52,303 nt of DNA from Prevotella sp. (GTDB taxonomy: Bacteria > Bacteroidota > Bacteroidia > Bacteroidales > Bacteroidaceae). The translations under genes were made by a program, and so were the position numbers. Of this stretch, positions 3,679-37,385 are shown one piece after another. Within the stretch, counting starts at the first letter, position 1. The number at the start of each line of letters is the position of its first letter. The stretch covers positions 1 to 52,303 of the forward strand of contig JAFUST010000035.1 in assembly GCA_017467535.1 (NCBI GenBank), given 5' to 3'. Below the pieces are notes generated by a model, which searched no databases, was not told the origin of the DNA, and was given only the letters and a program-made list of their open reading frames with translations.

Positions 3679-4719
3679 CTAATTGTTCTTCTTGTAACTG
3701 ACGACAGCCCATCCGGACATGAAGAGGGAGATGGCGGTGAGGGCCAGCAACTGGTGAGCGATGGCACCGAAGCCGCCTCCTCGGATGAATACTGTACGGA
3801 TGGCGTCGATAAAGTAGTGCATGGGGTTGACGTAGGTGGTGACGTATGCCCAGTCGGGCATGGATCGGGTGGGGGTGAAGAGGCCGCTGAGCAGCATCAG
3901 GCAGACCACGAAGAACCACATGACGAGCATGGCCTGCTGCATGGTGTCGCTGTAGTTGGAGATGATGAGTCCCAGCGACGAGAAGAACAGGGCCAGTAGA
4001 ATGGCCAGCAGATAGACCAGACAGAGTGGGCCCTGACAGATGATGCCATAGATGGCCCACGAGAGCAGCAGACAGACAGTGAGCACCACCAGGCCGATAA
4101 TCCAGTAAGGGATGAGTTTGGCCAGGATGAACGACCACTTGGAGACGGGCGTCACATTGATTTGTTCGATGGTGCCCTTCTCCTTTTCGCCCACAATGTT
4201 CAGGGCCGGCAGGAAGCCGCAGAGCATCATCATCAGGATACCCATCAGGGCGGGTATCATGTAGACCTTGTAGTTCTGACCTTTGTTGTATAAATTGAGA
4301 GTGGAAAACCGAGAATTGAGAATGGGCTGACGCGATGTGACGATCTGACTGAGATACGACGAGCCGATGCTGCCTTTTGTGCCGTTGACGGCGTTGGCGG
4401 CAATGAGATAGCGGCCGTCCTTGATCTCGATGATGATGTCGGCACGACTCTGCTCAATGTCTTTCATCGCCTCGGCGTAGGTAGCCTTCTGACCGCCGAA
4501 GATGAAGTAGCGGCTGGCCTCGATGCGGTGCACCAGTTGCTGCGACTGCGTGGTGCGGTCGTTGTCCACCACGTCGACCACGATGTTTTTCACCTCCTGG
4601 TTCATCACCCACGGCATCACACACATCACCATGATGGGGAAGATGAAGATGATCTTCGGCATGAATGCGTTGCGGCGCATCTGCAGAAACTCCTTTTGTA
4701 TCAGATAGCGTAGAGTCAT
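3679..4719 (-). CDS. ABC-2 type transporter permease (second of pair)
   Basis: 346 residues with one N-terminal membrane segment, a large extracytoplasmic domain (about residues 45-170), then five C-terminal membrane segments, the YhhJ/YhiH-type ABC-2 architecture. EKEKGTIEQINVTPVSKW is the conserved cytoplasmic coupling loop. It is the last gene of a TolC-HlyD-ATPase-ATPase-permease-permease operon that probably exports drugs or other amphiphiles across both membranes. It overlaps the preceding permease by 4 nt (ATGA). Just before the second membrane segment a heptanucleotide repeat (4294-4321) encodes LNSRFSTLN, at the same structural position as the repeat in its paralogue. The gene ends 5 nt from the convergent MBL gene, with no room for a separate terminator. 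Confidence 0.9.
   Translation of the reverse strand: MTLRYLIQKEFLQMRRNAFMPKIIFIFPIMVMCVMPWVMNQEVKNIVVDVVDNDRTTQSQQLVHRIEASRYFIFGGQKATYAEAMKDIEQSRADIIIEIKDGRYLIAANAVNGTKGSIGSSYLSQIVTSRQPILNSRFSTLNLYNKGQNYKVYMIPALMGILMMMLCGFLPALNIVGEKEKGTIEQINVTPVSKWSFILAKLIPYWIIGLVVLTVCLLLSWAIYGIICQGPLCLVYLLAILLALFFSSLGLIISNYSDTMQQAMLVMWFFVVCLMLLSGLFTPTRSMPDWAYVTTYVNPMHYFIDAIRTVFIRGGGFGAIAHQLLALTAISLFMSGWAVVSYKKNN
4294..4321. repeat. Heptanucleotide repeat in permease gene
   Basis: Four 7-nt units: ATTGAGA, GTGGAAA, ACCGAGA, ATTGAGA. The outer two are identical and the inner two are degenerate. It encodes part of LNSRFSTLN in the minus-strand permease without disturbing the frame. Confidence 0.7.
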
Positions 4720-5783
4720 ACGTCGAGTCGTTTGTTGAATTTCTTAAGTGCAACGAAGAGCAGAAGGGCCGTCATGGCGCTGAGCACTGTGACCTCAGAC
4801 AGCACCTCGCGGATGCCGACGCCCATGATCATCAGTTTGCGCATGGCCTGGATGTAGTAGCGGGGCGGTATCACGGCCGATATCCACTGCAGTACTGCCG
4901 GCATCGACTCCACCGGGAACAGCATGCCCGAGAGCATCACCGTGGGCAGAAGCAACACCATGGCCGAGACAAGCAGGGCCACAAACTGTGTCTTGGCAAT
5001 ATTGGAGATGAGCAGGCCAAGCGAGAGTGACAGCAGGATGTAGAGCAGCGACACAAGGATAATCCAGCCCAGAGAGCCCGACAGGGGAACCTCGAGCACC
5101 GTGGCCGACATGACCAGAATAATGACGAGAATGAGGAAGGCCAGCAGAAGATAGGGCACAACCTTGGCCATGATGATCATGAGCGGTCGGACGGGCGATA
5201 CCAGCAGCACCTCCATCGTGCCCCGTTCTTTCTCGCGGACGATGGAGACCGAGGTCATCATGGCACAGATGAGCAGCAGGAGCATGCCCATGATGGCCGG
5301 CACGAAGTTGTAGGCCGACTTCATGCGAGGATTGTATAATAGTTGAGAGTTGAGAGTTGAGAGTTGAGAGTGGGCTGCCGCCAGCGTCTGCTGGGCATAG
5401 GCGGTCCACTGCTGGGCCATGTTGGGGTCGGAGCCGTCAACAATGAACTGGATGCCGCTATGGCGGGAGGCATAGTCGGCGGCAAAGACCACGGCCAGGT
5501 CGGCCTGCTGGTTGCGGATGAGGCGCTCGGCATCGGCCGGAGTGGGGACGGTGGCCGTGATGGTGAAGTATTCCGAGGCTGCCAGACGGTCGACGGCCTG
5601 ACGGGTGAGGTGGTCCATCTGTGAGGTGACCACCACGGTGCGTACATTCTTCACGTCGTTTCGGATGGCGAAGCCGAAGAGCAGCATCAGGATGATGGGC
5701 ATGCCAAAGAGGATGAGCATCGTACGCTTGTCGCGCAAGATGTGGCGGGTCTCCTTGATGACAAAACTATAGAACTGTTTCAT
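4716..5783 (-). CDS. ABC-2 type transporter permease (first of pair)
   Basis: 355 residues, a paralogue of the following permease: an N-terminal membrane segment with KETRHILRDKRTML on its cytoplasmic side, an extracytoplasmic domain, and five C-terminal membrane segments. The coupling loop REKERGTMEVLLVSPVRP is well conserved. The two permeases probably form a heterodimer energised by the upstream ATPases and connected to the HlyD-like lipoprotein and TolC. The extracytoplasmic region contains four perfect copies of a 7-nt repeat (5341-5368) encoding SQLSTLNSQLL, immediately ahead of the second membrane segment. The start ATG follows the ATPase remnant by 3 nt and the end overlaps the next gene by 4 nt. 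No substrate can be assigned. Confidence 0.9.
   Translation of the reverse strand: MKQFYSFVIKETRHILRDKRTMLILFGMPIILMLLFGFAIRNDVKNVRTVVVTSQMDHLTRQAVDRLAASEYFTITATVPTPADAERLIRNQQADLAVVFAADYASRHSGIQFIVDGSDPNMAQQWTAYAQQTLAAAHSQLSTLNSQLLYNPRMKSAYNFVPAIMGMLLLLICAMMTSVSIVREKERGTMEVLLVSPVRPLMIIMAKVVPYLLLAFLILVIILVMSATVLEVPLSGSLGWIILVSLLYILLSLSLGLLISNIAKTQFVALLVSAMVLLLPTVMLSGMLFPVESMPAVLQWISAVIPPRYYIQAMRKLMIMGVGIREVLSEVTVLSAMTALLLFVALKKFNKRLDV
5341..5368. repeat. Four perfect heptanucleotide repeats in permease gene
   Basis: AGTTGAG is repeated four times without error, then decays to AGTGGGC. On the coding (minus) strand it gives the 7-residue cycle S-Q-L-S-T-L-N. As 28 nt is not a multiple of 3, any gain or loss of one unit would shift the frame of this permease. 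Confidence 0.85.
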
Positions 5784-5786
5784 TGG

Positions 5787-36455: not shown

Positions 36456-36481
36456 CAGCCAAAATAAAACGAGGACAGACT

Positions 36482-37363
36482 ATGCAACTGATTGACGGTA
36501 AAGCGACGGCCGCACAGATCAAGGCCGAGATTGCTGAGGAAGTGAAGGAGATTGTGGCCCGTGGTGGCAAGCAGCCCCATCTGGCTGCCGTGCTGGTGGG
36601 CCACGACGGTGGAAGCGAGACTTACGTAAAGAATAAGGTACTCGCATGCGAGGCCTGTGGCTTCAAGTCGACGCTCATCCGCTATGAGGACGACGTAACC
36701 GAGGAGGAACTTCTTGACTGCGTGTCGCGATTGAATCATGATGACGACGTGGACGGCTTCATCGTGCAACTGCCCCTGCCCAAGCACATTGACGAGCAGA
36801 AGATCATCGAGGCTATCGACTACCGCAAGGATGTGGACGGCTTCCATCCCATCAACGTGGGCCGCATGGCCATCGGCCTGCCCTGCTTCATCTCGGCCAC
36901 GCCCCTCGGCATCATCACGCTGCTGCAGCGCTACGGCATCGAGACCTCCGGCAAGAAGTGTGTCATCCTGGGCCGCTCGAACATCGTGGGCAAGCCCATG
37001 GCGCAACTCATGATGCAGAAGCAGTATGGCGATGCTACCGTCACCGTGTGCCACTCCCACTCGAAGACCCTGAAGGAGGAGTGCCGTGAGGCCGACATCA
37101 TCATCGCCGCCATCGGCAGCCCTGAGTTCGTGACCGCCGACATGGTGAAGGAGGGAGCCGTGATCGTCGACGTAGGCACGACCCGTGTGCCCGATGCCAC
37201 CCGCAAGAGCGGCTACCGCCTCTGTGGCGACGTGAAGTTCGACGAGGTGGCCCCCCGTTGCTCGTTCATTACCCCAGTCCCTGGCGGCGTAGGCCCCATG
37301 ACCATCTGCTCGCTGATGAAGAACACGCTGCTTGCTGCTCAGATGAGAAATGATAAATGGTAA
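36482..37363 (+). CDS. folD: Methylene-THF dehydrogenase / methenyl-THF cyclohydrolase
   Basis: 293 residues from the ATG at 36482 ([20 protein letters not shown]); frames further upstream would overlap the promoter. The catalytic Tyr/Lys pair lies in [15 protein letters not shown], the substrate loop in [17 protein letters not shown], and the NADP-binding part has [16 protein letters not shown] and the closing [21 protein letters not shown]. It interconverts methylene-, methenyl- and 10-formyl-THF in one-carbon metabolism, the same pathway as the cyclo-ligase at 24255. Its last residues (QMRNDKW) are encoded by a heptanucleotide repeat (37343-37363) rather than by a typical family tail. Confidence 0.95.
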
Positions 37364-37385
37364 ACTCACTCCTCATTTCTCATTT
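37343..37385. repeat. Inverted heptanucleotide repeats at folD 3' end
   Basis: ATGAGAA, ATGATAA, ATGGTAA (37343-37363) are followed by CTCATTT, CTCATTT (37372-37385). The two runs are complementary (ATGAGAAATGA pairs with TCATTTCTCAT), so an 11-bp hairpin can form around the folD stop codon. Confidence 0.75.

Follow-up and report, generated by a model that had tools for sequence, protein, structure and literature searches.

The subject of this report is a set of short tandem arrays built from units of seven nucleotides (nt), here called heptad arrays, in a stretch of 52,303 nt from a Prevotella sp. (contig JAFUST010000035.1 of assembly GCA_017467535.1). This stretch, referred to as the window, represents contig C101 in the draft genome (2.39 Mb, 79% complete) of a rumen Prevotella. 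The arrays keep a period of seven, peak at one length, are biased in their words, pair in convergent orientation, build a hairpin element with AGTGAAG arms in one word family, and turn over between closely related genomes, which sets them apart from random microsatellites. We read them, with a probability of about one half, as the arms, paired or solo, of small non-autonomous hairpin elements similar to REPINs, whose arms also change by slippage in steps of 7 nt.

Heptad arrays in the window and in the genus

A scan of the window for runs of at least nine exact matches at lag 7 marks positions 5341, 6174, 6524, 7249, 19903/19924, 20910 and 24930. Tandem Repeats Finder adds 7-nt arrays at 21624, 21718, 26884 and 37343 as well as position 8475 with a unit of 21 nt. 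The AGTTGAG array at 5341-5371 (plus strand, 4.4 units, found by both methods) lies in an ABC-2 permease gene (4716-5783, minus strand; genes here and below by Pfam) and is directly followed by a core remnant, GCTGCCGC (5374-5381, plus strand), which in a comparison of flanks matches the core of the AGTGAAG elements described below. A partly degenerate TTCACTT array (6174-6200, minus strand, both methods) is located in the frame of an ABC transporter ATPase (5787-6386), a GTTGAGA array (6524-6541, plus strand) close to the 3' end of an ATPase gene at an ATPase/ATPase junction, and an AATTGAG array of 32 bp (7249-7280, minus strand) at a junction between a HlyD-type and an ATPase gene, flush with the downstream ATG. 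Further along, a degenerate 21-nt (3x7) duplication (8475-8518) in coding DNA gives QRETFNV, and a 21-nt composite repeat (19900-19956, minus strand; Tandem Repeats Finder), made of two TTATTGT heptads and one other, encodes INNNRET.

The AATTCAT array at 20906-20930 (minus strand, lag scan) is flanked by two divergent elements which on inspection resemble the promoter motif that we take to be the Bacteroidota -7 motif, namely GCAAAGGTA (20889-20897, minus strand, given in plus-strand letters) and TACCTTTGC (20941-20949, plus strand). Within the open reading frame (ORF) 20946-22646 lies an inverted pair of arrays of the CGAGGAGGGAGCAA type, with its left arm at 21624-21657 (plus strand) and its right arm at 21718-21749 (minus strand). 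A CTCATCA array (24930-24956, minus strand) is part of a gene with QueH and cyclo-ligase domains; its word, ACTCATC, is also the word of 7 out of 24 arrays sampled in the genome of the window. An AGATTGA array (26884-26902, plus strand) stands shortly 5' of an ATG, and a weak ATGATAA array (37343-37364, plus strand) forms, by eye, a small degenerate inverted pair with 37369-37385.

The initial annotation had counted at least thirteen runs in exact 7-nt register. This is borne out at most positions by the lag scan and Tandem Repeats Finder, but not at 4294 (4294-4325, plus strand, an AATTGAG-like run with broken register), 25974 (25974-25998, a heptad-like run in coding DNA) and 37372, which are degenerate by eye. 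Its observation that runs inside genes become heptapeptide repeats agrees with the INNNRET repeats and QRETFNV, and with LSTLNSQ, which occurs once, in the permease at 5341. Start and stop codons do fall in or next to runs: the stop of ORF 7275-8174 lies within the 7249 array that abuts the ATG of the next gene, and ORF 25443-26885 terminates at a stop codon that overlaps with the array at 26884.

The prevalence of lag 7 was compared with other lags and with randomized sequence. Runs of at least ten matches occur five times in the window at lag 7, never at lags 2-6, 8 and 10, and once, once, twice and once at lags 9, 11, 12 and 13; the multiples 14 and 21 give four runs each. Twenty order-3 Markov copies of the window contain no such lag-7 run. 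If array segments are scored instead, the window holds six at lag 7 and 0, 0, 1 and 1 at lags 5, 6, 8 and 9, while 40 simulations of the window give a mean of 0.15 lag-7 segments and a maximum of 1. In 80 orthologous rumen loci (1.23 Mb) we count 115 lag-7 runs of at least ten matches, at least six-fold above each of the lags 5, 6, 8, 9 and 10 (2, 12, 15, 18 and 1 runs); lags 14 and 21 trail lag 7 as its multiples, and lag 22 reaches 35 runs. Runs of N in two loci (L055 and L073), included in an early count, were masked for later ones. Tandem units of 7 nt thus stand far above other unit lengths, as in the heptanucleotide repeats known from other bacteria.

For a search of whole genomes the pattern TGAR at four steps of 7 was used. 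It is present in 53 of 60 genomes of the genus (0 to 386 places each) and in 89 of 148 Bacteroidota genomes, the own genome counted. A reversed control matches other heptad words and therefore cannot serve as neutral background. Five genomes of the genus yield zero matches with both the pattern and the control (G024, G052, G036, G012 and G017); no scored lag-7 array was found in 180 kb of the single-contig genome G024, in 40 kb sampled from G052 or in 20 kb from G036, and the stretches sampled from G012 and G017 are tiny (335-582 bases). Two 50-kb stretches of Escherichia coli are likewise free of scored lag-7 arrays. Stretches of 6-20 kb from G180, G160, G145 and G034 contain no scored array, though these genomes are rich in pattern matches.

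Array anatomy, the core element and turnover

Scoring 2.43 Mb yields 252 arrays, 67 of which are 31-32 bp long (four and a half units). This class makes up 28 of 117 arrays if the 80 orthologous loci are excluded, and a lesser mode of 18 arrays lies at 27 bp. The peak at 32 bp is robust to stricter and laxer scoring and is visible in the genomes G000, G008 and G059, not in G010. A preference for about four units is also seen in the core family introduced below, where 38 of 61 arms possess four AGTGAAG units.

Merging identical arrays leaves 245 distinct words, and TGA or its complement TCA is present in 174 of them, whereas shuffled letters would give 72.8; TAA and TAG are rarer than expected. 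Units without C or without G number 204 out of 271 (122.6 expected for their number of G+C letters), and all G+C letters are of one kind in 57% of the arrays, as opposed to 0.4% of equally long random stretches. At periods 8, 9, 11, 12 and 22 the units lacking C or G are 15 of 35, 16 of 52, 8 of 19, 3 of 18 and 5 of 67, where longer units are expected to lack one of these letters less often. Words are shared by 172 of 1076 array pairs from the same genome and by 113 of 5448 pairs from different genomes. The whole-genome lists of pattern places point the same way, towards a genome-specific vocabulary: by our own count TGARTGT units make up 16 of 23 places in G045, and TGAACTT is contained in 12 of 16 in G042, with three letters per unit left free by the pattern and with overlapping places not being independent. 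A single dominant word per genome is not the rule, as G000, G008 and G059 have several; G010 nearly has one (17 of 29).

Of 25 inverted pairs of neighbouring arrays that use one word, 18 are convergent, one is divergent and six could not be given a strand; a gap of 42 nt separates the arms in 5 of the 25, and 10 other neighbouring arrays are direct. Such close convergent pairs are also a trait of heptanucleotide repeats elsewhere. In the flanks a short core, GCTACCGC, accompanies 10 of 197 arrays where 0.14 would be expected. The corresponding pattern, GAAGAATTTGCTNCCGC, is found in 21 of 60 genomes of the genus with up to 51 places (G034), and its reversed control in 0 of 60. Among the core matches listed, at least 27 pairs lie within 100 bp of each other, by eye all convergent and none divergent. 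Forty loci examined in full, 20 of them picked as pairs, follow the layout [AGTGAAG]n-AATTTGCTNCCGC-inner-GCGGNAGCAAATT-[CTTCACT]n, with an inner part of 21-22 nt in 15 of the 20 pairs and variable letters. Three of these elements were folded, and each gives a single long hairpin; this family, with these three folds, displays the doublet plan of REPINs, i.e. a spacer of conserved length and a hairpin.

The initial annotation had proposed an alignment of orthologous genes between strains. Genome G207 (the source of locus L021), 97.9% identical to the window over 15 kb, differs at six sites in word, copy number or presence. At 5341 it carries an AGTGAAG-type word in the same place as the AGTTGAG of the window, and at 7249 another word in the same place; at 6524 the window is shorter by 14 nt (two units). 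The array at 26884 is missing, G207 being without 21 bp that the window has, and so is the inverted pair 21624-21749, where the flanks are 99.7% identical over 4.6 kb on the left and 92.7% over 1.5 kb on the right. At the gene end around 37343, the stop codon is followed in G207 by an array of AATTAAG/AGTTAAG, about 32 bp long. The 26884 array and the 21624/21718 pair represent a presence/absence polymorphism as seen for miniature inverted-repeat transposable elements (MITEs), by gain or loss either way. Sites 19903 and 20912 are identical in both genomes, 8478 and 25974 differ by point changes (two nearby ones at 25974), and clusters of at least five differences are absent at 4294 and 6174. 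Words and lengths hence vary between close genomes, and identical run lengths in all strains, which would have spoken against the annotation, were not observed; nor do the sampled G024 and E. coli stretches hold arrays.

Between loci L041 and L049 one site differs by one unit. Together with the core, the 5341 site has AGTGAAG-type arrays in L032 and L034 and a related word in L044. The window retains GCTGCCGC, but its word AGTTGAG is that of an array 1.2 kb away, from which we infer a replacement of the word in register. Mapped loci carrying an array number 16 of 72, 9 of 73, 11 of 80, 14 of 80 and 6 of 80 at five orthologous sites, where 13, 7, 9, 10 and 5 different words are used.

The gene context was assessed with a simple gene caller of our own over 893 kb from seven genomes (77% called coding). 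Among 116 arrays, 32 lie in genes, 49 between co-directional genes, 17 between convergent and 9 between divergent genes, and 9 at stretch ends are unclassified; the density between genes is approximately eight times that within genes. Judged by eye, some twelve arrays at two of the five orthologous sites sit directly against the following ATG, and several arrays terminate a few bases from the -7 motif. Of 28 orientable arrays inside genes, 21 have TGA on the antisense strand. The idea that TGA serves as a universal stop in three frames was rejected on this account, as it fits at stop codons and not inside genes.

Origin and spread of the arrays

In the reading favoured here, some four heptads would be followed by an inner part, mostly 30-50 nt long, and by an inverted set of the same heptads, making up a complete element in which the TGA strand, usually C-poor, points toward the loop. 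Copies may be scattered to permissive places, i.e. after stops, before starts, beside promoters and into tolerant stretches of proteins. Arms could lengthen or shorten by 7-nt units through slippage, and they might adopt the word of another array. Most solo arrays would then be element arms, dispersal would proceed by transposition-like or conversion-like copying, and an enzyme acting in trans would presumably carry it out.

The initial annotation had supposed a single mechanism, either slippage or an element-like process. Slippage is supported by the 14 nt at 6524 and by the unit difference between L041 and L049, but not as the sole cause; the element-like process fits better, although none of the mobilisers tested accounts for it. 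Pure replication slippage with a preference for 7 nt, by which the polymerase would duplicate local heptamers and harmless arrays survive, is a serious though rather unlikely alternative. A size idea for such heptamer duplication by the polymerase is reportedly due to Mrazek and colleagues in 2007. Pure slippage is in agreement with copy-number differences being exact multiples of 7, with a variant-unit order that gives no sign of intact copying, and with the heptamer excess reported, in the portions of these works available to us, for many bacteria (PMC4679880, PMC4692102). Slippage alone is nevertheless insufficient, because genomes about 98% identical have different words in register at a given site, because the length distribution is peaked at 31-32 bp rather than falling, because convergent pairs (18:1) with near-constant spacing are not predicted, and because the core family forms a regular hairpin element. 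That the arrays are selected cis-regulatory or RNA elements (hairpins at 3' ends, translation leaders or promoter spacers) would match their intergenic density, the TGA-sense arrays at upstream stops, the arrays abutting an ATG or a -7-like element and the long hairpins of the three folded elements. We regard this as improbable, given that the five orthologous sites, four of which are junctions and one a coding loop, are mostly array-free and differ in words, that over a quarter of the arrays (32/116) lie inside genes, and that G024 as a single-contig member of the genus has zero pattern matches.

Movement of the arrays as REPINs by RAYT (Y1/HUH) proteins is likewise very doubtful. The REPIN plan of inverted doublets, spacers of conserved length and singlets is common to both. 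Two Y1/HUH protein families, A1 and A2, which we take to be RAYT-like, correlate with the arrays among the 60 genomes of the genus if kinship is ignored: array counts follow A2 (rho 0.45), and A1 is found in 13 of 21 core-carrying genomes compared to 3 of 39 others. The association with A2, the family compared there, is gone in 147 other Bacteroidota genomes (p 0.15), and the array-rich genomes G010, G026, G035, G039, G043 and G056 possess neither family (G039, G043 and G056 being 62-81% complete). The TTGCTNCCGC core occurs at 0 of 10 A1 genes in flanks of up to about 1.5 kb, some of them ended by the contig. A heptad array is near 1 of the 10, and most flanks carry other, GACAGG-type repeats by eye, which also counts against the hairpin-element reading. 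Y1-like loci with a heptad array amount to 1 of 20, and the same repeat does not flank the RAYT genes as it would for REPINs. A clade effect is the simpler reading of the correlations, because there is no link to A2 across the phylum and the repeats at A1 flanks are different. A reverse transcriptase as generator was discarded since PF00078 has no match in G000 and its count is untied to the arrays (rho -0.10), and so was the Y-family polymerase PF00817, which is present in 57 of 60 genomes and shows no association with the core family. The candidates tested do not explain the movement of the arrays; neither RAYT proteins nor reverse transcriptase are supported.

Several further points weigh against the arrays being arms of mobile hairpin elements. 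Most arrays of the window are solo, and the core is seen beside 5341 only. The array at 7249 recurs as an identical 32 bp in G000 (contig C8), there before an unrelated ATG, and seemed decisive for copying of intact arrays; a null model with shuffled units reaches such sharing, and for 32-mers in G000 the order of variant units is shared by 7 pairs compared to a shuffled mean of 5.4, a value matched by 37 of 300 shuffles. No target-site duplication stood out in the listed flanks, where the repeat can mask short ones. As to word sharing, G010, where almost every stretch had been selected with a word pattern, accounts for 123 of the 172 same-genome pairs, and the genomes taken by contig number (G008, G059 and G049) share words in 20 of 390 pairs. 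The TGA strand holds 4.4% C and 32% G, omitting 55 arrays without a TGA/TCA majority, and this low C is partly built in because the TGA strand was chosen. Finally, 16 of 18 TGA-sense arrays between co-directional genes, and 1 of 19 antisense ones, are no farther than 31 nt from the stop of the upstream gene. This speaks for the element reading, yet the rule is partly automatic, as half of the TGA-sense arrays overlap that stop and a sense array ends any frame entering it.

A RAYT-like Y1 protein was noticed separately in locus L191 (G000:C108:18500-21500). Its open frame is 434 residues long and includes an extension at the C-terminus as well as an EVHG repeat in the interior; the family of this protein is matched in 37 of the 60 genomes.

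Related repeats and minor observations

In many bacteria heptamers have been described as the most common of the long simple repeats, and their mechanism is unsettled. The initial annotation had likened the runs to heptanucleotide repeats of cyanobacteria, and the comparison is apt; the nearest described case is the GGGAATC repeat of Xanthomonas. According to the sections of that study available to us, mostly four-unit arrays occur genome-wide there, with close convergent pairs (70 and 75), lie nearer to the upstream ORF (average 28 nt), and vary in pattern between species at the same gene junction (PMC4692102). The 7-nt units, the four-unit mode, the convergent pairs and the nearness to the upstream ORF are shared with Prevotella. 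In the same sections one G-rich word was studied and 7-11% of arrays are in genes, whereas Prevotella uses many words, usually C-free on one strand and bearing TGA, has 32 of 116 sampled arrays in genes, and possesses one word family with a defined core hairpin (PMC4692102). TAACTGA repeats are described, in the parts consulted, from Beggiatoaceae, cyanobacteria and five Bacteroidetes (PMC4679880). They resemble the Prevotella arrays in a heptamer with TGA, in their position at gene junctions, in 7-nt indels between strains and in their presence in some Bacteroidetes; they differ by a single favoured word that includes C, by a location in the main genome mostly just 5' of start codons, and, in the parts of the description at hand, by the absence of a hairpin element such as that of the core family (PMC4679880).

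With REPINs, as far as the consulted parts of their descriptions go, Prevotella shares the inverted doublet forming a hairpin, a spacer mainly conserved in length, singlets, and positions downstream of genes; the arms are expandable heptad arrays in Prevotella but one palindromic REP in REPINs (PMC3116915, PMC3733652), and no RAYT gene flanked by the element is among the Prevotella loci examined. The BrickBuilt MITE of Porphyromonas gingivalis, likewise from Bacteroidota, combines a tandem repeat with inverted ends, but in the sections available its internal repeat is 23 nt, its location always intergenic and its range one species (PMC4596501). A 2025 survey, in the part accessible to us, reports a high density of short tandem repeats in Bacteroidota, and its main text contains neither "heptanucleotide" nor "7-mer" (PMC12699852). 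Among the papers listed in searches of the open-access literature, none deals with heptad arrays in Prevotella. Seven-base repeats are already known from Xanthomonas, cyanobacteria and giant sulphur bacteria, and we read the Prevotella arrays with their many words as a new form of this kind in Bacteroidota.

The four-unit convergent geometry thereby recurs in another phylum, with many words and with turnover between genomes about 98% identical, so that the question "why seven?" becomes testable by resequencing. In rumen bacteria, such arrays also supply genes with additional residues, with stop codons and with leader sequence. It is conceivable, although we consider it unlikely, that the heptad arrays of Prevotella, Xanthomonas, Nostoc and Beggiatoaceae form one unrecognised mobile class, a hairpin with arms of about four freely replaceable heptamers that a dedicated enzyme would spread and rewrite in register by reading spacing and strand composition instead of sequence.

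Other features of the region were noted in passing. The ATPase frame 5787-6386 seems to be startless: the Pfam ABC_tran match begins at model position 29, no minus-strand ORF of at least 100 amino acids is listed across the gap 6387-6516, and a sequencing error or a broken gene seems to be the cause. At 23342-23456, four bases past a stop codon, lies a palindromic element of 115 bp with GCCCCCTAAGTTAGGGGGC-type ends on both sides; its site measures about 36 bp in G207 and 125 in the window, and similar copies exist at other places in G207, G208 and G209. A palindromic promoter element around 20889-20949 was considered and rejected, as on inspection it resembles ordinary divergent promoters. 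The divergent -7-like elements GCAAANNTA...TANNTTTGC, in the window at 20889-20949 and in sampled loci, show a periodicity close to 10.5-11 bp in their spacing (89 pairs, orthologous loci included; resultant 0.66 and 0.69, compared to 0.48 at 9 and 0.41 at 12), as if the paired elements needed to face one side of the helix.

Two other classes of tandem repeat were noted. In G010 (L119-L124) a family of 9-nt repeats, many by eye of the TACTAGGAA type, occurs beside heptad arrays, with 22 scored lag-9 segments in 200 kb. A separate class with a period of 22 nt comprises 57 arrays (3, 45, 6 and 21 at lags 20, 21, 23 and 24), leaving out those with 7- or 11-nt periodicity. Examples are found in the window at 32075-32133 and in L109 (4098-4158, 12141-12210), L113 (3499-3559), L114 (4345-4402) and L117 (86-148). 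Their words differ and their architecture is alike: 28 of the 57 hold a stem of at least 5 bp within the unit, compared to 6 of 57 when shuffled once.

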